From assembly GCA_013284265.1 (NCBI GenBank), contig JABTBR010000027.1:1-64000 (forward strand): a DNA stretch of 64,000 bases. The letters are read 5' to 3'. A model generated the notes under the pieces. It made no database searches. It was given only the letters and a program-made list of their open reading frames with translations, and was not told where the DNA came from. Positions 58 to 48,336 of this stretch are shown here, piece by piece. This DNA comes from Oxalobacteraceae bacterium. Lineage in GTDB: Bacteria > Pseudomonadota > Gammaproteobacteria > Burkholderiales > Burkholderiaceae_D. Position numbers and translations under genes: made by a program. Numbering within the stretch: the stretch's first letter is position 1; each line of letters begins with the position of its first letter.

Positions 58-1716
58 TCAGGCGGTCGACATATCCTGCGCAGCCACCGTGCTATGCAAA
101 TCAGTGGCGCCGGTGCGGATGATCCAGTGTTCCGGATACGCGTCGCTGGCAAAGCGGTTGTGCTGCGGTAGCCTGCTGAGCTTATCGAGCGAGGTGGCTG
201 GCGCCAGCGCGGTTTCCTTGCCGGTCAGCTGGTCCAGATGCCAGAAGCCGCCGTCGTGATGCAGCAGCAGCGGCAAGGCGGCCGCCTGCGGTGCCGCCTT
301 GAACGCGGCCATCGGGTAGCCCGGATGGGTCTCCGGCGCCAGCAGATAGAAGCATTCGGCGCGCGCGCCCTGGTCGATGCGGTGCAGGATCACGCCGTGC
401 GGCATGAGCGCCGACACCGACAGCACCACGATATCCTTGATGCTGGCGCTAAATTCAATGCGCATGCCCAGCCGCAGCGCGGTGGGCTTGTGCTTGCCGG
501 GCCAGACGCCGTCGAGCAGGATGCCGTAGCGCGACACGTCTTCAATCTCATATCCCGCGCCGGTGCGGCGGATCACCGCATGGCGGCCGGACAGGCGCCG
601 CGTGAGGCCATTGCTGTCCGGGCCGTCCGGACCAAAATGGTTCAGCAGCACATCGGACTCCGGGTCGACCAGCTCGAAGCGGCCGAACACGCATTCGTCC
701 AGCGCGAACAGGCGGATCTGGCGCTGTGCGCCGGCCTCCGGCGCGGCGTTGACCAGGCAGGCGGCGCGGCTGTGGTGCGGATGCAGGGCCGCCGCGCTGG
801 GCATGTCGATCTCGATCAGATCCTCGTCCCAGGCGATGGTGGTAAAGCCCATGTCGACCTTGCCCTGCGGGGCGCTCAGGTCCAGGTGGGCGATGCCGGC
901 ATTGCGGGCGGTGACGTCGATATCGAGGCTGGCGCCGCCCTGGGCGCTGACGCGGGCGATCGAGGCGTCGTCGGCCATCACGCGCACGTTCTTGTGGGTG
1001 GACAGGAAGATGCGGTGGATTTCGGTCAGGCTGGCGTCCAGCCGCGGCACCAGGATCACGAAGGTGCACACCCATTTGCGCGCGGCCAGTTCGGCATGCT
1101 GGCTCAGCAGCTCGATGCTGATCTGGTACTGGCCATGTTCCTTGTCGCGCGAGGAGAATTCGACGAACACCGGACGCCATTCGCCGCTGGTGGAGCGCAC
1201 CAGTTGCTGGCGCGAGGCGCCGTTGGGGATCAGTTCCGATTGCAGTTGCAAGTTCAGCTGTGGCGCGCAGCCTTGCGGCATGCCGCGCAATTCCATCTTG
1301 AGGGTCTGGCGGCCACCGGCGGCGCGCGGGTCGAAACCGCTGATGTGCAGTTGAGGACGTTCGGACTGGGCGCGCTGCATCGGCCGGGCATAGCCGCCGG
1401 CCAGTTCGGCGCTGGCGCTGGCGCTATCGCTATCGACAGTGTTGGCGGCGGTGTTGCCCCGGGCAGGGACGGCAGCAGGCGCCGTTGCCGGCGCGGCGGA
1501 ACGGGAAGTGCGCAAGGCGCTGAGCAGATCGTAGCTGGAAGCAGGCGCTTCCGGCTGGCCGTGGCCACCCGCGCAAGCTTGCTCCCCTGGCATGACCCAG
1601 TAGGTGCAGTGCGGATGATCCGGGTTACCGCATTTTTTCATGGCATTCAGACCGACGAGATAAGCCTCAGTGTAGGCGCTTTTGCCGTGCTTTGGCAATG
1701 CGCCCGGCCTGCTCAC
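58..1716 (-). CDS. FHA-domain protein with N-terminal Cys cluster
   Basis: Probable phosphothreonine-binding protein of 552 residues and the last gene of the kinase/FtsW/phosphatase operon seen here. A forkhead-associated domain lies at about residues 335-435: a GR turn, then LSGRHAVI with the Ser-x-x-His signature, then YGILLDG in place of the usual NGT/NG. The N-terminus (about residues 27-52) has Cys and His spaced like a small zinc finger (CGNPDHPHC, then CAGGHG), followed by a Pro/Ala-rich linker and a beta-rich middle region. No signal peptide is visible, so it is probably cytosolic. The chosen start is GTG; an internal ATG at about 1641 would remove 25 residues. It lies 78 bp after the PP2C gene. 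The likely role is reading marks written by the operon kinase; this is inference. Confidence 0.8.
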   Translation of the reverse strand: MSRPGALPKHGKSAYTEAYLVGLNAMKKCGNPDHPHCTYWVMPGEQACAGGHGQPEAPASSYDLLSALRTSRSAAPATAPAAVPARGNTAANTVDSDSASASAELAGGYARPMQRAQSERPQLHISGFDPRAAGGRQTLKMELRGMPQGCAPQLNLQLQSELIPNGASRQQLVRSTSGEWRPVFVEFSSRDKEHGQYQISIELLSQHAELAARKWVCTFVILVPRLDASLTEIHRIFLSTHKNVRVMADDASIARVSAQGGASLDIDVTARNAGIAHLDLSAPQGKVDMGFTTIAWDEDLIEIDMPSAAALHPHHSRAACLVNAAPEAGAQRQIRLFALDECVFGRFELVDPESDVLLNHFGPDGPDSNGLTRRLSGRHAVIRRTGAGYEIEDVSRYGILLDGVWPGKHKPTALRLGMRIEFSASIKDIVVLSVSALMPHGVILHRIDQGARAECFYLLAPETHPGYPMAAFKAAPQAAALPLLLHHDGGFWHLDQLTGKETALAPATSLDKLSRLPQHNRFASDAYPEHWIIRTGATDLHSTVAAQDMSTA

Positions 1717-1794
1717 GTCGTATTTCCGATGCCTTTTTCGCTATGCGCCATCGGCGCAACAGTCGCTTGTGCCTGGGTGTCAACAAATGGCTTG

Positions 1795-2775
1795 CTACAG
1801 TGCGCCAGGTAGTGCCGTCTCGTCAATATTACCCTTTGCCGCGCTGAAGCGGAAGGCGATGGCCGTCAGGTTGTCAATGTGCAGTCCGGGCGGCGGATGG
1901 TGGGTGAAATCGTCAAACAGCGCGGCCAGGGCCGGGCCGGCCGCGCCGCCGGCCTGCGCCACCAGTTGCGGCCAGCGGCTGGTCCACTCTTGCGGGCGCT
2001 GGCAGGCCCACAGGCCATCGGTCGCCAGCAGATACAGCGCGTCCGGTCTGACGGTCAGCGCGCGCCGGTCGCCGAACTGGCGCAGGAAAGGCGGCAGCCC
2101 GGCCGCTTCCAGGGGGTAGAGGTCGTCGTCCAGCAGTTGCGGATTGGCGAAGGCGTTACCAAGGATGAAAGCCTGTGAAATCTGGGCGCGGTGTTCGCCA
2201 TGCACCTGCTGCCACCATTCCGGCGCGCCGAGCAGGCCGTAGATGGCGAAGGCGGTTGCGGGTACGTGATCGATAGTCAGGGGCTGGGCGATGCCGGGCG
2301 CGATTTCGTACAGGCGCGAATCGCCCACGTGGTACAGCAGCGGCGCGCAGCCGGGGGCAATCTCGATCAGCGTCAAGGTGGTGCCGGGGCGGCGGAAGCT
2401 GTCCTGGTCGCCCGTTTCGCGGAACTGCTCCTGCAACTGCGCGTGCAGCGCGTCGAGCCGCAGGCTCAGTTGCTCCAGGCTGGCGCAGGCGGGAATCGCC
2501 AGCACGCCCATGGCCGCCGCTTCCGCCGCTTCGCGGCCGTGACCATGGCCGCCCATGCCGTCGAACACGGCCAGGCGCACATGGCCGGCCGGCCACTGCG
2601 GTACTTGCAGCGCATACTCCTGTTGCTCGCGCAGGCTGACCGCGCGGCCATTGCCGTCGATGAGGACGAAGTTGTCCTGATTTTCCGGTACATGCAGTTT
2701 GCTGACACTGGCGCAGCTGCGCACAGCGACGTCCAGGCCGGAGCCGAAGGACAGGGTCGCGCTGATTGGCATCAT
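1795..2775 (-). CDS. PP2C-family Ser/Thr protein phosphatase
   Basis: Cytosolic metal-dependent phosphatase of 326 residues, probably opposing the kinase at 7551-8615. The PP2C motifs are present in order: ENQDN near the N-terminus, VFDGMGGHGHG, then YHVGDSRLY, LLATDGLW and a C-terminal DNLT. The four Asp residues expected to hold the two Mn/Mg ions are therefore present. The open frame extends far upstream, but that part overlaps the SH3 gene in another frame. The first good start is the ATG-ATG pair at 2775, which gives a normal PP2C length; no clear ribosome binding site precedes it. It follows the SH3b gene by 86 bp. The actinobacterial analogue would be PstP. Confidence 0.88.
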   Translation of the reverse strand: MMPISATLSFGSGLDVAVRSCASVSKLHVPENQDNFVLIDGNGRAVSLREQQEYALQVPQWPAGHVRLAVFDGMGGHGHGREAAEAAAMGVLAIPACASLEQLSLRLDALHAQLQEQFRETGDQDSFRRPGTTLTLIEIAPGCAPLLYHVGDSRLYEIAPGIAQPLTIDHVPATAFAIYGLLGAPEWWQQVHGEHRAQISQAFILGNAFANPQLLDDDLYPLEAAGLPPFLRQFGDRRALTVRPDALYLLATDGLWACQRPQEWTSRWPQLVAQAGGAAGPALAALFDDFTHHPPPGLHIDNLTAIAFRFSAAKGNIDETALPGAL

Positions 2776-2861
2776 CGTGCGGGAGGCTTGCGCCCGAAGG
2801 GAGAATGGCCACAGCTTATCCGAAAAACCGCGCGCGGCGGAACGCATTTGTGGCGCGACCT

Positions 2862-3410
2862 TCACTCCTTGTCCTGCCGCAGCCACAGACTGCTGGCCCA
2901 GCCCGTTGTTTGCGCCCCCGCTACGCTGGCACGCACCTGCCACCAGTCGCCCTGGCGCAGGCCGGTGGGCGTCACGCTGGCACCGGCCGGCACCGTCAGC
3001 AGGCGTGGCGCCTGCACGCCGGCGCCGCTGCGCAGGTTCAGGTCGCGGTGGGTCACGAAGCTGTGGCCTGCGAATGCGCTGATGGCGGAAGCGGCGGGGG
3101 CTTGTGGCGGCGTCGCCGTTGTCCTTGCCGTGGCCAGCGTTGCTTGTCGAGCTATGGCAAATGCCGTTTGCTGTGATCCTGCCGCCGTCGCAGGCGTCGC
3201 CACGGCATCCGCGAGCGCCGGCTGGTGCTGGCTGCTCAGGTACTGGAGCAGCAGGCTGCCGAAGGCCCAGCTGCCGCCGCACAGGATCAGCAGGGCGACG
3301 GCATTGGGCCGCTTCCACCAGCTGCGCGGCGTGAGCCAGGCGGCCAAGAACAAGGTGATCACCAGCCCTGTCGCATAGGCGGCTGGCGCGTGCCAGGAGT
3401 CGGGCAACAT
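2862..3410 (-). CDS. Membrane-anchored SH3b-domain protein
   Basis: Protein of 182 residues with two N-terminal hydrophobic segments (about residues 10-28 and 38-57), an Ala/Thr-rich linker and a C-terminal bacterial SH3-like domain (about residues 110-180). That domain has the pattern LNLRSGAG, VPAGASV, GDWWQV and GWASSLWL. Such domains often bind peptidoglycan or peptides, so it may connect the operon to the cell wall. The ATG at 3410 has a GGAG five to six bases upstream. A GTG at 3425 overlapping the previous stop (GTGA) is an alternative that adds five residues. Translation appears coupled to the 555-residue protein upstream. Confidence 0.75.
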   Translation of the reverse strand: MLPDSWHAPAAYATGLVITLFLAAWLTPRSWWKRPNAVALLILCGGSWAFGSLLLQYLSSQHQPALADAVATPATAAGSQQTAFAIARQATLATARTTATPPQAPAASAISAFAGHSFVTHRDLNLRSGAGVQAPRLLTVPAGASVTPTGLRQGDWWQVRASVAGAQTTGWASSLWLRQDKE

Positions 3411-3421
3411 GATGGCTCCGT

Positions 3422-5089
3422 TCACGCGTCGAAGCGCAGCACGTAATGGCCCGCCACCAGATGATGGCCCGCCGGCAGGAAGTAAGGCGCATCGGCCTCG
3501 CTGTCGCCAATGCTGGCGACGAAGGCCAGCTTGTCGTCCAGATGGTAGAGCGCCTGCGTAGCAGCCAGCCGGGCGATGTGGAAGCCTTGCGCGGCCGCCT
3601 CGAAGCTGAAGGCCTTGCGCGACAGGCCGATGCGGTCGGCGCTGGCGCCATCGGCCGTGCCGCTGTGCTTGAGGAAGCGCGGCGAATCAAGAACGCGCAG
3701 TGCCGCCAGTGCCGGCGAATTGCGGCCAAACGCGAAGCGCGCGCCGGCCGCCACGCTGGCGCCAGGAGCCTGCGGCAGGCAGAGCAGGGCGCAGTAGCGG
3801 TCCGACATCGCATCCGGCGCGGGCAGCAGGGCAATCACGCGCGCATCGACCGGCGTGAATCTGGCAGGAGCGACGATGCGCTGGCGGCCCGCTGCGCTGC
3901 AGGCATACAGTTCGTCGGCCGCGGTGACGATGAAGCTGATCGCCGCCGCGCCTTCGGCGCAGGGCGTTAGCGCTTGATCGAAGGGCAGCTCCAGTGCGTC
4001 GGCGCCGGTATCGCGATAGCGGCTCAGGCGCGGTAGCGCAATGGCCGCCAGGCTGACACGCTGGCGCGCAAGCGGAGCAAAGGTGGCGTCGCTCTCGGAT
4101 GCTTTCCGCTCCGGCTGATGGCTTAGCGGTACGGCGGTCGCGTCGGCTTGTATCGCGCTGGCGCCGCGCTGCTGCCAAACCGAGACCGGGGCGTGCGGCG
4201 CAGGCGATGGGTGTGCGGCATGGGTAGCGGCGTCGGTGCCGGTGCCAGCGCCTGGACCCGCGACCATGCCACTGCCACTGCCACTGCCACTGCCGGCTAC
4301 CGGGCCTTTGTCCGCGTCGATCCGTAGGCGTGGTCCGGCGCCGGTGCGCGCAATATCGGCGGGAGACGGCCTTATCCGGCCAATTTTAAGCAACAGACGC
4401 GCGCCACCTTCGCTGCCTTCGCCTGCCCGCGCTGATCGAATGATGTAATGCCCGCCGCGCGGGTCGAAGCGGCAGTCGAAGGAATCCTTGGGCCGCATCT
4501 GCACGATAGGCGGTGCATCGGGGCCATCGTTGACGATCAGGATGGCCCCATCGGGACCGAAGGGCCAGCTGCCGGCCGGAACCCCATCACCGTCCAATAG
4601 AGCAAGGCGCTGATTCGGGTAGATCGGGCAGACGGTTTGCCAGACCGCGCTGTCGCGCGACAGGCTGACGTTGTAGAGGATTTTCTCGTCCGGACCCGGA
4701 ATGTAGACGGCGTGGCCGAAGCGCACGCCGATCTGGCCCGGCGCCAGCGTTTCCACGCCGGCCACGTCGTAGCGCACCTGGTCGCTGCCGAGCAGGTCGC
4801 CGAAGTCTTTCTGATGCAGCGCCGTCAAGGTCTGCGCCAGCTCGCGCGCCCGGTTGCCGCGCGTAAGGTGATAGTCGTCATCGACGTCTTCCTGCGGCAG
4901 CAGCAGCGTGACGTGGGAGAAGCAACGGGTGGCGGCGCGGCCGCGATGTTCGCGCGGGCTGCGTTCGAGCAGGTCGCGCAGCAAGGGGCGGCGCGCGAAC
5001 AGCGCCAGTCCGGGCGCCTGCCAGATCGCTTCGGCGTTGAACACGTCCGGAATCCGGCCTAGAACTTCGTGTTGGACATAGATCGGCAT
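3422..5089 (-). CDS. Unknown 555-aa protein, FHA-like C-terminus
   Basis: I do not recognise a family over the full length. The protein is soluble, with no signal peptide. A central Gly/Ser repeat region (about residues 270-285, coded by CCACTG-type repeats near 4260-4300) separates a beta-rich N-terminal half from the C-terminal part. Residues about 450-555 resemble a degenerate FHA fold: FGRNS, then LSRKAFSFEAAAQG, then ALYHLDDK and a final beta strand. The ATG at 5089 has a GAGGAG ribosome binding site. It starts inside the 3' end of the FtsW-like gene (31-bp overlap). Position in the kinase/phosphatase operon suggests a scaffold or regulatory partner; this is inference. Confidence 0.65.
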   Translation of the reverse strand: MPIYVQHEVLGRIPDVFNAEAIWQAPGLALFARRPLLRDLLERSPREHRGRAATRCFSHVTLLLPQEDVDDDYHLTRGNRARELAQTLTALHQKDFGDLLGSDQVRYDVAGVETLAPGQIGVRFGHAVYIPGPDEKILYNVSLSRDSAVWQTVCPIYPNQRLALLDGDGVPAGSWPFGPDGAILIVNDGPDAPPIVQMRPKDSFDCRFDPRGGHYIIRSARAGEGSEGGARLLLKIGRIRPSPADIARTGAGPRLRIDADKGPVAGSGSGSGSGMVAGPGAGTGTDAATHAAHPSPAPHAPVSVWQQRGASAIQADATAVPLSHQPERKASESDATFAPLARQRVSLAAIALPRLSRYRDTGADALELPFDQALTPCAEGAAAISFIVTAADELYACSAAGRQRIVAPARFTPVDARVIALLPAPDAMSDRYCALLCLPQAPGASVAAGARFAFGRNSPALAALRVLDSPRFLKHSGTADGASADRIGLSRKAFSFEAAAQGFHIARLAATQALYHLDDKLAFVASIGDSEADAPYFLPAGHHLVAGHYVLRFDA

Positions 5090-7554
5090 GATTCATTCTC
5101 CTCTAAAGATTGCGCACTGATCGCACAGAGCGTTAGCAGGGGGCAGAGGAAAAACAGCAGATGGCTGCCGCCGGCCGACAGAAAACTCATGGGCTGGCCC
5201 ATGATGGGAAAGATCGCCAGATTGGTTCCCCAGGACAGCAGGAAGTGGCCGAGTACGAAAGCCGCGCCGCCGCACAGGGCGAAGTAGCGCAGGCGGCCCA
5301 GCCAGGCCTGGCGGAAATCGCGCGACTGCGTCGCGGCGCCATAGGCACGCGCCGCCACACTCAGCATCGCGACAATCAGCAGGGCCTGCGCGGCCCACAG
5401 CAGCAGGCCGGCGGCCAAGCCGTGGCGATTCAGGAAAAAGGCCGGCGCAAAGTCATCCTGCACGGCGGGAATGCGGATCGCCGCGCCGGGACCCTGGCCC
5501 AGGGCGCGCAGTCCGAGCATGCCGTCGGCGCCGGCCCAGCCGCCATCGGCAATGGCCTGCGCTCCCAGCAGCAGTTGCTGGCCGGTGTGGGGGTGGCGCG
5601 CGGGCGCTAGCCATACCTGGAAGCGGTCGGCGTAGAAGCCGCCGGTCTGATCCGCCGCAGCGACCGCATGCAGCGTGCCGATGCCAGCGGCGACCAGCAG
5701 CACAAGGACCAGCAGGGCCAGCGCCAGCCGCAAACGCCGGGCGGCCAGGGCATATGCCAGCAGCATGGCGGTGCTCCAGACCAGCAGCAGGATCAGGGGC
5801 GAGTAGTCATCCACCTGTACCAGTGCCATGCCCAGCAGGGATAAAAACAGCAGGGCGGGTGCGATCAGGCGCAGCCAGCGCCCGCCATGTTCTGCCAATG
5901 TGGCGGGCGCCGTTTGCCAGCTCATGCGCAGGGCCAGGCAATGCGCCGTCAATGCGGCCAGCGCCAGCTTGCCCAGTTCCACCGGCTGCAAATCGAATAC
6001 GCCGGTTTCATCGCCCCACAGCACCTGGGCGGCCAGTGCCAGCAGTGCGATAGCCGCCAGTGCGGCCAGCAGCCATTCGGTGCCGCGCTGCGACAGCGAG
6101 CGCCGCGAATAACCGGCCCAGACCCGCCACATGCCACCCAGGCCAGCGCCGATGGCCAGCAGCGCGCAGCTCTTCTGGTAATAGCGCAGCCAGGATGACT
6201 CCTGTGCGCCCAGTCCCAGATCGAGCTGCGCCAGCAGGCCGCTTGCCAGCAGCACCACGGTGGCCGCTGTCAGCGGCGTGATGCGGCCCGGCAGGGCGAT
6301 CCACAGCAGCAGCGCGCCAGCGCCCAGCAGCAGGGAGCATGCGGCCGGTGGCGCCGTGCCCGCACGCTGCAGCCACAGTGCTGCAGCGCCGCACAGCAGC
6401 AGTGCCGCGCAAGCGCCAGCGGCCAGCGCGGCATCGAGCGCACGCCGACGCATGTCATTGCGGCCAGGTGCTGCCAGGCGGCGTATCAGCACAGCCGTGG
6501 CAAGGAGCAGGCAGCAGCTCACGCCTGCCCATAGACCGCGCCCGTCTTCGCCAAACCAGAGCGCGCGCTGCTGCCACTGCCAGGCCACTTGCTCAGGCAG
6601 GCGCTGGCCTGGGGCCGCAAACAGCGTCACGCGACGCGACGGTTGGAGCGTCAGGACGTCGTCATGAAAGGCGAGTTGCAGGCGCGTGTGTCCTGCGATG
6701 ATCGCGCTGGCCCGGTCCAGTGGCAGCTCCTGTTGGCGCAGATCGCTGCGGACGGCGCCATGCAGCAGCACGGCAGCCGCTGCCCCGTCCGGGCTACCGG
6801 CGCTCAGTTGTATCTGCCCGCCGACCCGGTTCAGCATCGCCGCGCCTGGCGCCACGTCGGCAAGGCCAATCCGGTTGCCGCAATACAGATTACCGCCAAA
6901 AGACGCCGCGCGCGCCACGGTGAGCGGGATCGGGACGGCCCGGTTCCACCACGCGAGCATGCGCGCCGACAGTGCGGAGTCCGGGCATGCCGGCTGGGCA
7001 TGGCCGTCGCGGTACAGGGTGGCGCCGTCGAAGCGCCATGTTGATGAGCCGCGCGTGAAGCTGATTTCGCCCGCGCGCGCTGAGGAAATCGCAAACAGCT
7101 TGGCGTCGATCTGAAAATGCGTTTGCCCCGGTGCCGGAAGCGCGGCGCTGCCCGCATGGATGTCTGTTCCGCCCCCTTGAACGAGCAACTGGCGTATGGT
7201 GCTGATCCGGCGTACCAGCCAACGGCCGTCGACGTCGCGGCGCAAGGCCAGGTGCGCACTATCGGCCTGCGGAGCGGCCAGCTCGGCGCGCCCCAGCACG
7301 ATGCCCTGGCCCGGTGCCAGTCGTACTTCGATGGCCGCCGGGAACCATGTTTCCGGGGCGCGCCACAGTGCCCACAGCTGCAATGCGCACAGGAGCGCAA
7401 ACGCCAGCAGTGTCAGCGTGGCCGCGACATGGCGCCGTGCCTGCGCGCGCCAGCCGTCGGGAACCGCCATATGCCACGCTTCGGCGGCGGCCTGCCGCAA
7501 GCTCGCCGCCGCGCGCTCCTGCGCAGCTGGCCGCCGCAGTGCGCTGCCCATCAT
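5059..7554 (-). CDS. FtsW/RodA/SpoVE (SEDS) protein, large N-terminal extension
   Basis: Polytopic membrane protein of 831 residues, about twice the usual SEDS length. After one membrane segment (about residues 44-66), residues about 75-330 form a soluble beta-rich region with an FHA-like start (IVLGRAEL, SAHLALRR). The C-terminal half has around ten membrane helices. SEDS marks include GGWAGADG, then IPAVQDDFAPAFF, where the second Asp aligns with the proposed catalytic Asp of RodA/FtsW, and NLAIFPIMGQPMSFLSAGG near the end. SEDS proteins polymerise glycan strands together with a class B PBP, but no PBP is encoded nearby. Its ATG overlaps the kinase stop (ATGA), so translation is coupled. 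The fusion architecture is unusual. Confidence 0.85.
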   Translation of the reverse strand: MMGSALRRPAAQERAAASLRQAAAEAWHMAVPDGWRAQARRHVAATLTLLAFALLCALQLWALWRAPETWFPAAIEVRLAPGQGIVLGRAELAAPQADSAHLALRRDVDGRWLVRRISTIRQLLVQGGGTDIHAGSAALPAPGQTHFQIDAKLFAISSARAGEISFTRGSSTWRFDGATLYRDGHAQPACPDSALSARMLAWWNRAVPIPLTVARAASFGGNLYCGNRIGLADVAPGAAMLNRVGGQIQLSAGSPDGAAAAVLLHGAVRSDLRQQELPLDRASAIIAGHTRLQLAFHDDVLTLQPSRRVTLFAAPGQRLPEQVAWQWQQRALWFGEDGRGLWAGVSCCLLLATAVLIRRLAAPGRNDMRRRALDAALAAGACAALLLCGAAALWLQRAGTAPPAACSLLLGAGALLLWIALPGRITPLTAATVVLLASGLLAQLDLGLGAQESSWLRYYQKSCALLAIGAGLGGMWRVWAGYSRRSLSQRGTEWLLAALAAIALLALAAQVLWGDETGVFDLQPVELGKLALAALTAHCLALRMSWQTAPATLAEHGGRWLRLIAPALLFLSLLGMALVQVDDYSPLILLLVWSTAMLLAYALAARRLRLALALLVLVLLVAAGIGTLHAVAAADQTGGFYADRFQVWLAPARHPHTGQQLLLGAQAIADGGWAGADGMLGLRALGQGPGAAIRIPAVQDDFAPAFFLNRHGLAAGLLLWAAQALLIVAMLSVAARAYGAATQSRDFRQAWLGRLRYFALCGGAAFVLGHFLLSWGTNLAIFPIMGQPMSFLSAGGSHLLFFLCPLLTLCAISAQSLEENESCRSMSNTKF

Positions 7555-8615
7555 GCCCCCTGAATGCCGCGCCAGCCGTTGTCCGCGCTGGGCCGGCGCA
7601 TATTGCGGATCAGCTCAGGCAGCAGCGGCGAATCGCGCACCGACAGCATGCCCTGGATCGCCGCCAGCATGCGGCTGATCTGGATGGCGTGGCGCGGCCG
7701 CCGCGCCGGATCGGTCTGTAGCAGGGCGCGCAGCAGGGCCAGCGCGGTATCGCGTGCATGTGGATTGAAGCGGCCGATGTGGGCGGCGAACATCGCTTCC
7801 TCGTCGGCATACAGCGCGGCGGGGATGGCGCCGCCGTTGGCATCGCGCAGCAGCTGCGCGCCGGCGCTACTGTGCCGGCGGTAGGCATTGCCGCAATCGC
7901 TGCAAAAACGCAGCGGCACGCCGCCGGTGACCAGAAAGTACAGCATCGCGCCCAGCGAAAAATAGTCGCTGTGGGTGCCGGTCGAATAGGCGCCACTGGC
8001 ATCGGGAAAAAACTGTTCCGGCGCCTGCCAATTGGCGGTGCCGGCATACGAGTGAGCGTGCAGATTGCCGAGTTGGCGGTTGGTGCCGAAGTCGGCCAGC
8101 TTGACTGTTTGCAGTTGCGGATCGAGCAGCACATTGGCCGGCTTCAGGTCCAGATAGCGCCAGCCATACTGGTGCACCTTGGCCAGCGCCTGATTGATCT
8201 GGGCCATCCAGTCGAGCACCTGGGCCAGCGCCAGCGGGGTGTTGGCCGCCTTGAGCGACTGCACATGGCGGCCCAGATCGGTGGCCATCAATTCCAGCGC
8301 CAGCACCGGCAGGCCGTCGTGCCAGCCGCTGTCGAGCAGGCGCACGATGTGGCGCTCGTCCCAGGGCTCGAGCGATTGCAGGAAGGCGATCTCACTGGCG
8401 GCGCAGTCGCTCCAGCGCTCGCGCAGCGGCGGCAGGGCGCGTTCCATCTGCTCCTGGTTGATCAGCTTGAGCGCCACATCGCCACCGGCGCGCGGACCGC
8501 TGGCGCGCCAGATCACGCCGTAGGCCGAGCCGCCGATCTGCTCGCGCAGGCGATAGTGGCCCAGTTCCAGCGCGATCACGCTGTCGCTGGCGATGCTGTT
8601 TGTCTGCTTGTTCAT
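7551..8615 (-). CDS. Cytosolic Ser/Thr protein kinase, non-RD type
   Basis: Eukaryotic-like kinase of 354 residues and first gene of the operon. Motifs in order: Gly-rich loop IGGSAYGVIW, VALKLI with the ATP-binding Lys, YLDLKPANVLLD, where Asp and Lys of the catalytic loop remain but His-Arg of HRD is Tyr-Leu, DFGTN, and APEQF. Loss of the Arg marks a non-RD kinase, which usually does not need activation-loop phosphorylation. A C-lobe insert, FCSDCGNAY, has a CxxC pair. No transmembrane or sensor domain is present, unlike PknB-type kinases. The ATG is preceded by a GGGGGA ribosome binding site. Likely substrates are the operon-encoded proteins; this is inference. Confidence 0.88.
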   Translation of the reverse strand: MNKQTNSIASDSVIALELGHYRLREQIGGSAYGVIWRASGPRAGGDVALKLINQEQMERALPPLRERWSDCAASEIAFLQSLEPWDERHIVRLLDSGWHDGLPVLALELMATDLGRHVQSLKAANTPLALAQVLDWMAQINQALAKVHQYGWRYLDLKPANVLLDPQLQTVKLADFGTNRQLGNLHAHSYAGTANWQAPEQFFPDASGAYSTGTHSDYFSLGAMLYFLVTGGVPLRFCSDCGNAYRRHSSAGAQLLRDANGGAIPAALYADEEAMFAAHIGRFNPHARDTALALLRALLQTDPARRPRHAIQISRMLAAIQGMLSVRDSPLLPELIRNMRRPSADNGWRGIQGA

Positions 8616-43631: not shown

Positions 43632-44076
43632 ACTGGCCACCCTGGATGCGATGCGCGAACTGGTGGGCCAGGAACTGGCGACGACGGACTGGATCGAGAT
43701 CACGCAGGAGCGTGTGAACCAGTTCGCCGACGCCACCAATGACCATCAGTGGATCCATCTCGACGCCGAACGGGCCGCACGCGAGTCGCCGTTCGGCGGC
43801 ACCATCGCGCATGGCTTTTTAACCCTGTCGCTGGTGTCGGGCATGCTGGAAAGCGCGATCCGCATGGTCGATATGAAGATGGGCATCAACTACGGCCTGA
43901 ACAAGGTGCGCTTCCCGGCCCCTGTGCCGGTGGGCAGCCGCGTGCGCGCCCGCCTGACCTTGCAGAAGATCGAGGACATCGTCGACGGCGCCCAGCTGGA
44001 ATGGAGCGTGGTGATCGAGCGCGAGGGAAGCCTCAAGCCGGTCTGCGTGGCCGAGTTCGTAATGCGGCGTTATTAG
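43624..44076 (+). CDS. MaoC-family hydratase (second of pair)
   Basis: Hot-dog-fold protein of 150 residues with the motif NQFADATNDHQWIHLDAERAARESPFGGTIAHGFLTLSL, where the Asp and His of the (R)-specific enoyl-CoA hydratase site are present. The frame extends upstream to 43378, but the ATG at 43624 overlapping the first MaoC stop gives the family length and has AGGAGG upstream (GCAGGAGGCGCGC). Last gene of the operon; a terminator follows. Confidence 0.88.
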   Translation: MRELATLDAMRELVGQELATTDWIEITQERVNQFADATNDHQWIHLDAERAARESPFGGTIAHGFLTLSLVSGMLESAIRMVDMKMGINYGLNKVRFPAPVPVGSRVRARLTLQKIEDIVDGAQLEWSVVIEREGSLKPVCVAEFVMRRY

Positions 44077-44131
44077 TTATGGCATATTAGTTAAGAGTGG
44101 GCCGCAGTTCCTGGCTGTACGCGACCCTTGG

Positions 44132-44163
44132 CCGCGACGTTCAATCGACGTCGCGGTTTTTTT
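44132..44163 (+). terminator. Terminator of acyl-CoA operon
   Basis: CCGCGACGT...ACGTCGCGG hairpin followed by seven T, 56 bases after the last MaoC stop. Confidence 0.9.
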
Positions 44164-44210
44164 ATCGAGGCTTTGCTAAAAACTGCTATCAATACGAGCG
44201 AATGATCATC

Positions 44211-44609
44211 TCAGCGGCGGTCGGAAGGGTGATTGACGCCGTCGTGCGTGCCGATTTCGCCCAGGTCAAAGGGGTTCACGCCTTCCAGGCAGCCAACGTT
44301 GTAACCATACTGTTCGGGATTCGAACGCCGCTGGTGGTGGGTGTAGATGCCGCACACCGAGCAGAAGTAATGCTTGGCTGTATTGGTATTGAACTGATAT
44401 AGCTTCAGTACGTCCGCCCCCTTGATGATTTGAATACCGGATAGGGGAACGGAGGCCGCGATCGCCCCTTTCCGGCGGCAGATCGAGCAGTCGCAGCGGC
44501 GCGGATCGACGACGCCGTCCGGCAGCGTCAGCTCCAGTTCCACCGCGCCGCAATGGCAACTGGCTTTGTGCTTGGGTTTGATCTCGGTAGGGCCTATTTT
44601 TTTGATCAT
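44211..44609 (-). CDS. GFA-family (glutathione-dependent formaldehyde-activating-like) protein
   Basis: Zinc-binding protein of 132 residues. Cys pairs are arranged as in the GFA family: CHCGAVELEL near residue 20, RRCDCSICRRKGA, and KHYFCSVCGIYTHHQ. Family members bind zinc and some are described as glutathione S-adduct enzymes, but most are of unknown function. The ATG at 44609 is chosen; a GTG at 44639 would add ten residues without family support. It is convergent with the acyl-CoA operon and lies at the edge of the AT-rich island. Confidence 0.85.
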   Translation of the reverse strand: MIKKIGPTEIKPKHKASCHCGAVELELTLPDGVVDPRRCDCSICRRKGAIAASVPLSGIQIIKGADVLKLYQFNTNTAKHYFCSVCGIYTHHQRRSNPEQYGYNVGCLEGVNPFDLGEIGTHDGVNHPSDRR

Positions 44610-44648
44610 GATCGTGTCCGAACTTTGCTGAACTTCCACTCAATCGAC

Positions 44649-44671
44649 GATTCGCGTTTTCATCGCGAATC
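44649..44671. promoter_or_regulatory. Inverted repeat upstream of GFA gene
   Basis: GATTCGCG, seven bases, CGCGAATC: a perfect 8-bp inverted repeat about 40 bases upstream of the GFA start. It could be an operator; no regulator gene is near. Confidence 0.4.
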
Positions 44672-44978
44672 TCTTTCAGTTTTTGCACTACACCTATCCA
44701 TTCAGGCGCTTATTCAGAGCCGAAATACATGAGCGCACTACTCTTGAACAGAGTGCCAAGGGCGCCAGAATCAAAACTGACATTCGCATACAAGCTTGGC
44801 AAAATGATAATTTTCCTGTAAATCGGTCCATGCCAAAGTGTCGCTCAGATCTGGCCCCACTATTTTTTAAACGGCGGCTTTCGCCCCAAAGCGACCAATG
44901 GCAAGAAGTAACGACGTCCTAAGCATATTGTAGGGCATATGGAAACATTACCCTCCTCCATATGAGCTTTTTGCATCG
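44672..44978. other. AT-rich intergenic region at island edge
   Basis: About 300 bases with no supported gene. Composition drops in GC compared with the genes to the left, marking the start of the island that carries the DUF4365 and OLD genes. No insertion sequence end or direct repeat is recognised. Confidence 0.4.
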
Positions 44979-45911
44979 TTAATCATAAAAATAGATTTCC
45001 TTATTGAAGTGATCTAGTTCTGTCAAATGATGCATACGCCCGTCCTGTACTCTAGGAAAAGGAGAATGTTTATACAGAATTCTGAAGATCTCAATGTGAC
45101 CGTGATCTTTAACCCGATTGATAATTTCTTTCGTTAAAGCAAGGTTTTCTTTTTTCTCTGAAATGACAAAAATATAGAGAAGAGGGTTATCTTCTTTATG
45201 TCCACATGAACCCATGTTCAGAGTGCGCCAATCTATGAACTCATTTAGTCGATCTAGAGTGAATTCTTTGTAAATGTCATAGTGGTGGGCTACATATACG
45301 TATTGGCCAGTTCGTTCAAACTCAGCGAGACAGGTAAAATACATAAAATCATGAGGTTCATGGAGCAACGGGCAAATATCAAGTCGGCCTGTATTGGATG
45401 ATTTATGATATTTCTCGCTCAAAAATTTGAAGAGTGCAAGGTTAACGATATCAGGATGCTGTGGCATCCCAGCGATCAACGTAAGATCATTTTTCCATTT
45501 TTTTGTAAGCGTCTGTTTTTTTGGAACTCTTATCTTCCAAGCTTTTTCGGTTCGAATGATGTTTGCACGTGTAACTTCCTCCCAATAGCATGTGCCAGAC
45601 TGTTCGTCACACAATATTATGAGTACAGGTAGGGAGTGAAGCAACCAATATTCTAAGTGTTTAATTTTTCCATAGTAAATATAGCAATCCTCTTCTTCTG
45701 AAGAGAGATAAGATGGCCCACACTTTATCTGCGCTGCTAGGAGTCTTCCTGTTCCTTCACGACTGTCCTTTACGATTTCAACGTGACCATCAATACCTAA
45801 ATCATTCTTCGTCTGCTCACGAAATATCCAAGAAAACTCTTGTTTCACCCTTAATGAAACTAAGTCAATACCGATGTCACCCTTTTCGTCATTTTCTATA
45901 TAGTCTGGCAT
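44979..45911 (-). CDS. DUF4365 nuclease-like protein
   Basis: Protein of 310 residues, clearly AT-rich compared with the rest of the window. The N-terminal domain (about residues 1-160) matches DUF4365: EFSWIFREQTKNDLGIDGHVEIV, then LLAAQIKCGPSYL. The Gly-Ile-Asp-Gly and Gln-Ile-Lys pattern is the signature of a PD-(D/E)xK nuclease-like fold. The C-terminal half is unassigned and has many aromatic and charged residues. It lies 210 bases downstream of an OLD-family nuclease gene, same strand. Nuclease-like DUF4365 proteins are often seen near defence genes; a role here is inference. Confidence 0.78.
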   Translation of the reverse strand: MPDYIENDEKGDIGIDLVSLRVKQEFSWIFREQTKNDLGIDGHVEIVKDSREGTGRLLAAQIKCGPSYLSSEEEDCYIYYGKIKHLEYWLLHSLPVLIILCDEQSGTCYWEEVTRANIIRTEKAWKIRVPKKQTLTKKWKNDLTLIAGMPQHPDIVNLALFKFLSEKYHKSSNTGRLDICPLLHEPHDFMYFTCLAEFERTGQYVYVAHHYDIYKEFTLDRLNEFIDWRTLNMGSCGHKEDNPLLYIFVISEKKENLALTKEIINRVKDHGHIEIFRILYKHSPFPRVQDGRMHHLTELDHFNKEIYFYD

Positions 45912-46121
45912 AGTTCAGGTTGCAAAAAAAACAACAGCATTATAAAAATACTGTTTTACAATATTAATTTTCTGCGCACGCCACTGGGTAGACGTCATCT
46001 TTAGGATGAAAATACTAACCCTAATTAAAGATCGTGACTTTCTGCTTTTGACCGAACGTCGTCATCTATCCTCATGGACAAGGTGCAGTGCTCTTTGCTA
46101 ACAATCAGAATTACATCGTAC
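45912..46121. other. Short intergenic region between OLD and DUF4365 genes
   Basis: 210 AT-rich bases with no gene. They may hold a separate promoter for the DUF4365 gene. No terminator hairpin is obvious, so co-transcription with the OLD gene remains possible. Confidence 0.35.
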
Positions 46122-48005
46122 CTAATAGTTGCCCATTGCTTTTGAAATTATTTGTACAAGCATAACCGGCACATCACCTGCTGCTTTCAACGTCGCAGTC
46201 CGATAAGCAATTTGATTCTTCGCCAAATCAATACCCGCAGCTGCTTCGACCTCCTTGCAAGCGGTATCCCATTCTGGCCAATTCGTTATGAGAAAATTCT
46301 CAAGGTGGTCTTCGAAGTTTGCAACTTGATCAGAAACAATCGCAGGAGGAAAATCGACTTCCTCCAGACCAAAATATTTCAGGATTGCACGGTTTTGTTT
46401 TGCATTGTTGTTGCGCTCTTCATCTATTTTTTCCTGCTTCTTACCTTTTTCTTTAGCTCGAGCCTCGCACCCAGCATCAGCATCGAAAAGCGCATACGAA
46501 GGGATTCCGATCGAAGTCAGTATCGCGTGCGCCAAAGGAATCGAAGTCTTCCCCCCAACTGGGACGATTGCGATGCCAGCAGCTTCCAATGCGCCATGAG
46601 CCGATTTGTCACCGACGCCGTGGAAGACCGAGGCTTCGGTTGTTCCTTCGACAAGCAAAGCACGGTGGGAAAATAACGCGACGGACAATTGACTAGCGAT
46701 GATGCCATCAAGCTGACGTTCGACGGTCTCCGCACTGACAACCCCATCTAATTTTTCCTTTACATGCTCGACGGTAGCCGAGTGAATTGAAACAACGGGC
46801 GTATCTTCTGTCGACCTAGTTAGTCTTCTAACTTGGTTAAAATATCGAGCTTCGAGGAAGTAAGGGCTATGCGTCGCATAGGTCACCTGAATTCGCTTGC
46901 CAGCGTCCTCGGCAAGCGATCGAAGAACCTTCGCAAAGGTCTGTGCTTGAATAGGGTGTTGAAAGAGCTCAGGCTCTTCAATCGCTAGGCAGATCACCCC
47001 GACTTCTGAAGCTGCACCTGATTGGGCAAGCAATTGCAGGGCCGAGATTAATAGCGTCCGCTGAAAACCGTGTCCTTGGCGCTCAACAGTTGTTTGTGTG
47101 GAACCATCCAAAACCGCCACTTCAAACGTCGTTTTAGGTGCTTTAAGTTCGATATTAGCTGGTGACACAGCGACTGCCCGGCCTGGGGAATAAGAATTGA
47201 CGACTGCATTGAGCTTCGTAGTCATAGTCTCGAGCTGAGACTTAAACTTAACCTCATACACTTTTTGCTGTAGCGCCCGCGATTCTTCGACAATTTTGGC
47301 AATCTCTTCATCAGCCGCAGCGCGATCTATTGAGCGCTCCAAAATTCGCCCTATGATACTCGACTTGCCATCAGTGGATTCCTCACTTGCACGAAGATCA
47401 GCGGTAACTAAAACAAAGTCGAAGAGTCCACTCATCTTGCCACCACTGTTGAACCCAAAGAAATTTGTCTGAAGTGCTTCAGGCGCATCAGTTAGTAGAT
47501 CTGTGTGCGCAGCCTCCCAGGCCATCATCGCCTGCTCAATCGCCGCTGCCGTCGAGGCGCTCGGAAGATCCCATTCCTGTTTTTCGTTTCGCAGGCTTGA
47601 ATACAGTTCTTTCTTCTCACCCGCAGTTCCAGCAGCTTTAATTGCATTAAAGCTATCGAAGCTCTTTGCATTAGCGGACAGGATCTCTGATCCATCAGGC
47701 GCTCGGCGCTTCCACGCAGTAAAGGTGGCAGCACTTTCAGGAGCATACTTGCCAAGCGCTTCCCTATCCTTATCTGTAAGATCACTGAATGTGACCTGAA
47801 CTTCTATGTTTTCAGTATGTGCGCCAAATGAGCAATCCTTCTCTGTCAATGATCCAGGTTTGCCGTTAAAGAACCAATCCAGTGCACGAAGCACCGTAGA
47901 TTTCCCGGCACCGTTTGGGCCAATAAAGGTTGTAACGGACTCAAAGGTAATCGTTGCATCTTTCAATGTCCTGAAATTCTTGATTTGAACAGATCTAATC
48001 TTCAT
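46122..48005 (-). CDS. OLD-family ATP-dependent endonuclease (AAA + Toprim)
   Basis: Protein of 627 residues. The N-terminal ABC-type ATPase starts MKIRSVQIKNFRTLKD with Walker A FIGPNGAGKST (residues 28-37). Its signature and Walker B region are later: QGHGFQRTLLISALQLL and VICLAIEEPELFQHP, then TYATHSPYFLEA. The C-terminal Toprim nuclease domain has HRALLVEGTTEASVF and YALFDADAGCEAR with the metal-binding acidic residues. This is a full-length OLD protein, related to the P2 OLD exclusion protein and to GajA of Gabija. No GajB-type helicase is adjacent. The ATG at 48005 has a GGGGGGAA ribosome binding site; the longer frame to 48131 is not needed. Confidence 0.9.
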   Translation of the reverse strand: MKIRSVQIKNFRTLKDATITFESVTTFIGPNGAGKSTVLRALDWFFNGKPGSLTEKDCSFGAHTENIEVQVTFSDLTDKDREALGKYAPESAATFTAWKRRAPDGSEILSANAKSFDSFNAIKAAGTAGEKKELYSSLRNEKQEWDLPSASTAAAIEQAMMAWEAAHTDLLTDAPEALQTNFFGFNSGGKMSGLFDFVLVTADLRASEESTDGKSSIIGRILERSIDRAAADEEIAKIVEESRALQQKVYEVKFKSQLETMTTKLNAVVNSYSPGRAVAVSPANIELKAPKTTFEVAVLDGSTQTTVERQGHGFQRTLLISALQLLAQSGAASEVGVICLAIEEPELFQHPIQAQTFAKVLRSLAEDAGKRIQVTYATHSPYFLEARYFNQVRRLTRSTEDTPVVSIHSATVEHVKEKLDGVVSAETVERQLDGIIASQLSVALFSHRALLVEGTTEASVFHGVGDKSAHGALEAAGIAIVPVGGKTSIPLAHAILTSIGIPSYALFDADAGCEARAKEKGKKQEKIDEERNNNAKQNRAILKYFGLEEVDFPPAIVSDQVANFEDHLENFLITNWPEWDTACKEVEAAAGIDLAKNQIAYRTATLKAAGDVPVMLVQIISKAMGNY

Positions 48006-48336
48006 ATCAGCATTCCCCCCTAGTTTTTGCTTTTTTATTTGATAAGAAACCAATGATTCTGAAAAGATATTTAACAACCGCAACGTATAGATTGCATCAG
48101 CTGCTGCCCTCTCAAAATGAAGGAGGGACATTACTGAACGTCGGCTCCTGGCCGACTACTGACTGCGCGCACATTAACCATTCATCGCTCACTTGTAACA
48201 AATAGCATCATCCGCGTTTGCTTGTATTCAGCCCCTGATCCAAGGATATCATATTGCCAAAATGAAAATCTCACAGATTTCCACATTGCCTGTGGACCCA
48301 CAGTGAAGTGTCATTCCAAGACAGACCGATGCAAGC
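48006..48336. other. Gene-free region upstream of OLD gene
   Basis: 330 bases at the right edge of the AT-rich island. The longer frame of the OLD gene extends into it but without a ribosome binding site. It should hold the OLD promoter. No tRNA, integrase or repeat is visible to mark an insertion boundary. Confidence 0.4.

Follow-up and report, generated by a model that had tools for sequence, protein, structure and literature searches.

The window analysed here is a stretch of 64,000 nucleotides from an Oxalobacteraceae bacterium (assembly GCA_013284265.1, contig JABTBR010000027.1), and its first base is the first base of that contig, here called C59, in a draft genome of 6.94 Mb. Six consecutive minus-strand genes at its left end encode a divergent SEDS protein together with Ser/Thr kinase, phosphatase and FHA proteins. 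We consider it likely (probability of about 0.7) that this SEDS protein forms, with a partner penicillin-binding protein (PBP), a third peptidoglycan synthase which is separate from RodA-PBP2 and FtsW-FtsI and is under Ser/Thr phospho-control. All six genes listed in the initial annotation could be confirmed. From right to left, they encode a soluble Ser/Thr kinase of 354 amino acids (7551..8615; Pfam Pkinase, E 1.7e-32), the SEDS protein of 831 amino acids (5059..7554; PF01098, FTSW_RODA_SPOVE), a protein of 555 amino acids termed P3 (gene 3; 3422..5089), an SH3b protein of 187 amino acids with a GTG start (2862..3425; PF08239, SH3_3, E 1.3e-7), a PP2C phosphatase of 326 amino acids (1795..2775; a sub-threshold match to PF13672, PP2C_2, together with motifs), and a zinc-ribbon-like/FHA protein of 527 amino acids (58..1641; PF00498, E 3.7e-6). 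According to the coordinates, the kinase and SEDS genes overlap by 4 bases, the SEDS and P3 genes by 31 bases, and the P3 and SH3b genes by 4 bases. For the FHA gene, the most probable start is 1641 instead of the earlier 1716, this start being conserved in the alignment of relatives, and the start of the PP2C gene lies at about 2775.

The SEDS protein scored 56.3 bits against PF01098 (curated cut-off 26.4), while relatives in other families scored 66–69 bits. Its structure was modelled with a mean predicted local distance difference test score (pLDDT) of 84 and a predicted template modelling score of 0.85. The model matched P. aeruginosa FtsW (8bh1) with Z 20.0 over 315 residues at 4.2 Å, followed by 6pl6 (Z 18.3) and E. 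coli RodA (8tj3; Z 17.8), and placed a SEDS core of ten membrane helices at residues 424–821 (5092..6285). The catalytic Asp of SEDS proteins sits in extracellular loop 4. Asp701 of the window's protein (codon 5452..5454), the equivalent of D297 in E. coli FtsW, aligned with the HTDF Asp of P. aeruginosa FtsW and with that of canonical SEDS proteins, and was invariant in 44 sequences. The FtsW/RodA fold and this residue bear out the assignment of the protein, earlier called SEDS-like, as a true SEDS protein. Residues 70–298 (6661..7347) gave a VIA match to the FHA domain of APLF (Z 8.6, 86 residues, 2.3 Å), and the protein carries approximately four membrane helices beyond those of canonical SEDS proteins. 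The N-terminus of the SEDS core points inward, and helix parity combined with the orientation of the core suggests that the FHA-like domain would face the periplasm.

In a tree of 44 SEDS rows from one phylum, 13 new rows fell outside 16 RodA and 15 FtsW rows on a long branch with a support of 100/100; the RodA and FtsW labels were given by best match to two proteins of the window's own genome taken as RodA and FtsW. Within the phylum sampled, the divergent protein thus belongs to a separate clade, neither RodA nor FtsW, a point raised in the initial annotation. A Gln in loop 2 and one Arg in loop 4 were retained in the five rows of the new family that were displayed. The window's genome contains two canonical SEDS genes in addition to the divergent one, and each of 24 other genomes sampled from the phylum had one or two SEDS genes, with a third in none of them. 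The canonical gene taken as RodA lies between two transpeptidase genes, one more than the usual PBP2 (G000:C90:28893-33319).

A search of the genome for transpeptidases revealed nine places, of which one, on contig C95, was odd. The PBP had been reported as missing from the locus, which proved wrong at the genome level; the window merely starts at a contig end, and a dedicated PBP is encoded on C95. The position of C95 was determined by synteny, using 20 regions of relatives that were fetched for gene order and gene content. Just past the FHA gene, these regions carry pirin (17/20) and OsmC (18/20) genes, and the last genes of C95 encode OsmC and pirin, with identities of 88% and 77% to proteins so named by Pfam. 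Because OsmC and pirin are the neighbours to be expected for the first gene of the window, the end of C95 is considered to adjoin base 1 of the window, although a search for an exact overlap of 15–150 bases between the two contig ends was negative. None of the 20 fetched regions reaches as far as the PBP (0/20 contain it), but it could be located further along.

The C95 protein is approximately 1,100 residues long, and Pfam, searched at E values up to 0.1, recognised PF00905 alone and no glycosyltransferase domain. The motifs STFK, SxN and KTGT were present in 42/42 PBP rows, some of them duplicates. On these motifs, the protein is predicted to be a class B-type transpeptidase which would bind penicillin and carry out cross-linking. 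A profile of the family matched 4mnr (E 9.5e-12) and 7rcw (E 0.0044) in PDB, and the single sequence gave no PDB match at E 0.01. In G226, a genome from another family of the order, a 1,054-residue PBP gene adjoins the kinase gene, and its product is 36% identical to the C95 protein over 1,065 residues.

The distribution of the two genes was counted in 148 genomes, including that of the window. The SEDS gene was present in 68 and the PBP gene in 69 of them; 67 genomes had both, one had SEDS only, two had PBP only and 78 had neither. In the SEDS-only genome (G064), the match is a contig-end fragment; the PBP-only genomes are G056, 60% complete, and G070, in 520 contigs. Fisher's test, uncorrected for kinship, gave p 1.3e-38 overall and 1e-6 within the genus (65, 1, 2 and 6 genomes in the same order). 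All 60 pairs found on the same contig were convergent (60/60) and 13.4–28.5 kb apart (median 17.4 kb), and in 7 of the 67 genomes with both genes, the window's genome among them, the two lie on different contigs. In the order sample, each of the six further genomes with P3 had the PBP as well, including G084 and, with one internal stop, G355. As for the two P3-bearing genomes of the class sample, G551 has a PBP fragment at a contig end and G681 has none.

Six members of the genus (G009, G041, G048, G053, G066 and G072) were without SEDS and PBP genome-wide. The order of FHA, pirin, kinase-FGE and zinc-ribbon genes is preserved in them, with OsmC in five of the six (not G041) and PP2C in G041 only. 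Their fetched regions are without the kinase, SEDS, P3 and SH3b genes on one side and without the PBP gene and four genes of unknown function on the other; except for PP2C in G009, the loss of genes other than SEDS and PBP was judged within these regions. In a tree of the FHA protein, the six genomes were nested inside SEDS-bearing rows and required two changes on well-supported branches; the tree includes five long-branch rows, of which G052 lies near a group of five loss genomes. This is read as at least two independent losses of both blocks. The joint loss of two flanking blocks with the middle kept is what a single machine would lead one to expect. It is not explained by position alone, since the zinc-ribbon gene located between the blocks persists in all six genomes.

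The zinc-ribbon protein of C95 had itself been considered as a member of the module and was expected to track SEDS and PBP. It does not, being present in 77/148 genomes, and it was therefore left out of the core and used as a control. In the window's own genome, this protein (L165:13986-16277; 763 amino acids) may be an SPFH/prohibitin-like scaffold, as judged by its sequence, and beside it a kinase of 776 amino acids is fused to an FGE-sulfatase domain (L165:16298-18628). As the zinc-ribbon gene is retained in genomes without SEDS and PBP, the pair is regarded as a separate unit. Between the PBP and zinc-ribbon genes lie four genes without a Pfam match (L165:9399-13902), which are gone together with the PBP from the regions of the six loss genomes; one of their products, of 355 amino acids, vaguely recalls what we take to be a Lon-like domain.

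Around the SEDS gene, the locus is well conserved. The kinase, SEDS, P3, SH3b and FHA genes were present in 20/20 fetched regions and PP2C in 13/20, and the order kinase-SEDS-P3-SH3b-(PP2C)-FHA was preserved across them. A larger set consisted of the best 80 of 115 relatives, obtained by a pattern scan of genome contigs with the P3 alignment, and leans to close relatives. Among these 80 loci, tblastn detected P3 in 80, SH3b in 80, FHA in 79, SEDS in 78, the kinase in 75 and PP2C in 72, a few of the matches being contig-end fragments. Contig ends truncate all five loci that have no kinase and one of the two that have no SEDS, and locus L131 is without PP2C and FHA. The loci belong to Massilia, Duganella, Rugamonas, Pseudoduganella, Telluria, Janthinobacterium and other Oxalobacteraceae, a group of bacteria from soil and water. 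Co-occurrence of the six genes in other genomes, on which their interpretation as a module depended, is thus borne out. Counting the window's genome each time, P3 was detected in 7/399 genomes of the order, 3/274 of the class and, with a broader profile, 2/398 of the phylum; these samples overlap, and no more than a few candidates were scored in each genome. Beyond its own family, the module was found in a single genome of the order, and two genomes of the class have parts of it. In two other genera, an MFS_3-family transporter gene is inserted between SH3b and PP2C (L058:9901-11346 and L059:8767-10020). No description of the module was found in the literature searched, which covers part of the published work.

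P3 had been described as an FHA-like unknown. Its AlphaFold2 model (mean pLDDT 73) revealed two parts joined by a disordered linker, and hydropathy gave no membrane span. FHA domains top the list of VIA matches for the C-terminal part (residues 340–555; 3425..4072), led by that of CT664 (Z 8.7, 96 residues, 2.1 Å); Foldseek gave this part a probability of 1.00 with a best E of 0.016 and none below 0.001. Gly455, Arg456, Ser490 and Arg491 of the FHA site were invariant in 11/11 diverse sequences. A second FHA-like domain is probably present at residues 129–241 (4367..4705), where a single VIA row matched MxiG (Z 7.4, 87 residues, 2.8 Å), below the Z of 8 under which the tool warns of common arrangements. 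The FHA part of the earlier description thus stood in the model, while searches of Pfam, NCBIfam and PADLOC gave no useful match, and the P3 profile matched no PDB sequence up to E 10. An N-terminal domain of the actinobacterial FhaA type was considered for the N-terminus of P3 and is not claimed; Pfam gave no match to it, and that domain was absent from the fold-match list, which hardly covered the N-terminal part of P3.

Directly ahead of the FHA domain, within a mostly variable linker with a pLDDT below 50, Thr336 (codon 4082..4084) was invariant in 45/45 sequences of one alignment (A4) and 11/11 of another (A6), in most rows as part of a DATxxP motif. On this invariance, Thr336 is predicted to be a phospho-acceptor.

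The kinase is of the non-RD type (YLDLKPAN), with DFG and xLDLKPxN present in 75/75 loci that have the gene and a VAxK-type motif in 66/75. Pfam gave no match to a PASTA domain, and because hydropathy shows no membrane span, the absence of an extracellular sensor could be confirmed. The PP2C protein matched PF13672 (E 1.5e-4) and NCBIfam Stp1 (E 9.5e-11), both below cut-off, and carries DGxGG, GDS and DN in 72/72 and an ATDG-like motif in 66/72 loci; in the two class-level relatives with P3, PP2C matches of 46–48% occur elsewhere in the genome. Two membrane spans, predicted by hydropathy, precede the SH3b domain of the SH3b protein. The FHA protein has a full FHA site, with Gly345, Arg346, Ser376, Arg378 and His379 invariant in 13 sequences, and it contains a Cys/His motif in 79/79 and the SxRHA pattern in 73/79 loci.

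Gene content, fold, motifs, clade, co-occurrence and coordinated loss were all computed, and as a genetic unit the SEDS-PBP synthase is well supported. Catalysis, contact between SEDS and PBP, phosphorylation, sensing and the product are what we infer. In the proposed mechanism, the divergent SEDS protein with its outer FHA-like domain would polymerise glycan. Cross-linking of this glycan would fall to the large transpeptidase dedicated to it, whose gene lies in a convergent operon some 17 kb from the SEDS gene and past the left end of the contig. The soluble kinase and the PP2C phosphatase would set the phosphorylation state of cytosolic adaptors, and Ser/Thr phospho-control of the synthase is probable. 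P3 is probably the main adaptor, and Thr336 beside its FHA domain could act as an intramolecular switch similar to GarA/OdhI. The synthase may be switched on and off by the state of the wall, sensed outside via the SH3b protein or via the outer domains of SEDS and PBP. We give even odds to the fuller account of an old third SEDS branch with a changed acceptor site, an outer FHA-like domain and its own transpeptidase, which would constitute a third Gram-negative wall synthase governed by a loop of kinase, PP2C and Thr336/P3. The earlier suggestion of a dedicated glycan polymerase controlled by an independent phospho-signalling module is a reasonable hypothesis, because the genes co-occur, the SEDS protein is a true one by fold and Asp, and it forms a separate clade; the part of it in which the PBP was lacking fell away.

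Several observations weigh against a phospho-controlled synthase. Of 11 diverse P3 rows, 9 have lost the FHA His, which the two most distant rows alone retain. No close copy of PP2C could be found elsewhere in the genomes of the seven fetched regions (of 20) without it, so that reversal of phosphorylation is not universal. The FHA protein, being kept in genomes without SEDS and PBP, has another role too. In Massilia terrae (L129:9045-10025), a mere remnant of the 3' end of SEDS lies between the kinase and P3 while the phospho-genes and SH3b are kept, which represents either a natural SEDS deletion or an assembly error. Moreover, G551 has SEDS and P3 without kinase, PP2C or SH3b nearby, and G681 has P3 alone in the fetched stretch. 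Pfam gave no match to a pedestal or PBP dimer domain in the PBP, whose N-terminal region it did not recognise. Changes at R137, W138, Y379 and D297 are reported to abolish the function of E. coli FtsW (PMC8765783); these positions were matched by motif, E. coli FtsW lying outside the alignment. In loop 2 of the window's protein, the canonical Arg is aligned to Thr and the Trp to a gap. The loop reads GxExGVxxxQPxE in the 44 rows of the family, the window's included, and an Arg with a Trp within three residues occurs in 0/44; the most distant row, L163, has Arg-Gly-Trp with the sole Arg there. The loop 5 Tyr is likewise lost in the new family. With the loop 2 Arg-Trp pair and this Tyr lost, the active site is unlike that of canonical SEDS proteins, and activity cannot be taken for granted.

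The loss of the loop 2 pair typical of peptidoglycan SEDS proteins would also suit the alternative that the protein acts on another lipid-linked glycan, as a ligase or polymerase of exopolysaccharide or O-antigen, with the PBP serving as an amidase or regulator. The O-antigen ligase WaaL was the next structural match after FtsW and RodA (Z 12.9), and in Foldseek alone it ranked first (E 0.0016), with no match at E < 0.001. However, FtsW and RodA were clearly the better matches by structure (Z 17.8–20.0), the catalytic Asp occupies the SEDS position, and the co-inherited PBP retains all three penicillin-binding motifs. Sugar-nucleotide genes were absent among the neighbours scanned with Pfam, which were a part of the neighbours. 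This alternative is therefore considered unlikely, though it is the most serious competitor of the peptidoglycan synthase.

Still less probable is a role in conflict or defence. Here the kinase would act against phages together with caspase-like, SIR2-like and AAA neighbours, and SEDS and PBP would remodel the wall upon infection. Like many Ser/Thr kinases, the one encoded here is similar to kinases of defence systems (mad6, E 1.3e-37); in G226 a caspase-FGE fusion and an AAA ATPase lie beside the module, and in G551 a protein that reads as SIR2-like adjoins the PBP fragment. Unlike mobile defence systems, however, SEDS and PBP are near-universal in the genus (65/74 sampled genomes have both) and occupy one kind of place, a plasmid search with P3 gave no match, and PADLOC gave none up to E 1 for SEDS, P3, SH3b and FHA. 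It is about as improbable that SEDS and PBP are tied by old synteny without joint function, the phospho-genes serving other targets; the single conserved region, the persistence of FHA without SEDS and the Massilia terrae locus would fit this, but the retained zinc-ribbon gene, the repeated joint loss of the flanking blocks and the closeness of the pair in another family in a different arrangement argue against it.

The preferred synthase was compared with known systems. The actinobacterial locus comprises pknA-pknB-pstP-rodA-pbpA-fhaA/fhaB. In C. glutamicum and M. tuberculosis, pknA and pknB are reported to be in an operon with rodA and pbpA, in a cluster that encodes two FHA proteins (PMC3989709). 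Within a single neighbourhood, the present locus likewise unites a Ser/Thr kinase, a phosphatase, SEDS, a transpeptidase and two FHA proteins. It differs in having one soluble non-RD kinase without PASTA domains or a membrane span, a SEDS protein outside the RodA clade with an outer FHA-like domain, a PBP in a separate convergent operon (in all 60 same-contig pairs), an additional SH3b gene and a different gene order. The likeness appears limited to general domain families.

With RodA-PBP2 and FtsW-FtsI, the system shares the SEDS fold, the catalytic Asp and a paired transpeptidase without a recognised glycosyltransferase domain. In contrast to RodA and FtsW, the SEDS protein forms its own clade (100/100), is without the loop 2 Arg-Trp, and has an N-terminal FHA-like domain and about four extra helices. 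Its partner, of approximately 1,100 residues, differs from the canonical PBPs of these pairs by the N-terminal region without Pfam recognition. GarA and OdhI are FHA switches with an ETT motif. P3 resembles them in the invariant Thr directly before its FHA domain, whereas DATxxP replaces ETT in most rows and most P3 proteins have lost the FHA His.

Further observations concern the neighbouring genes. In G226 (L156 and L199), the AAA ATPase and caspase-FGE fusion beside the module are accompanied by more genes that read as FGE or caspase-FGE fusions, apparently a multiplied family. A family of approximately 1,460-residue open reading frames (ORFs), c17, downstream of the locus in some relatives was discarded, as its translation reads as a false ORF opposite real genes. 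No type VI secretion genes were present among the neighbours scanned with Pfam, no genome-wide search having been made for them. Within the window, positions 44000–48100 have a low G+C content (~0.45–0.48) and contain ORFs that read as an OLD-like AAA/TOPRIM nuclease (46122–48131) and a DUF4365-like protein (44979–45911), and this segment is probably an acquired defence-type insert.

The genomes with natural losses suggest that the module is not essential, and hence that it could be deleted for study. If the proposed synthase is real, SEDS-PBP synthases would have diversified beyond elongation and division, and the missing loop 2 pair would make the clade a natural experiment on the residues that a SEDS protein needs. 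Control of wall growth by threonine phosphorylation has so far been tied mainly to Gram-positive bacteria, and the module would extend eukaryote-like kinase control of wall synthesis to betaproteobacteria.

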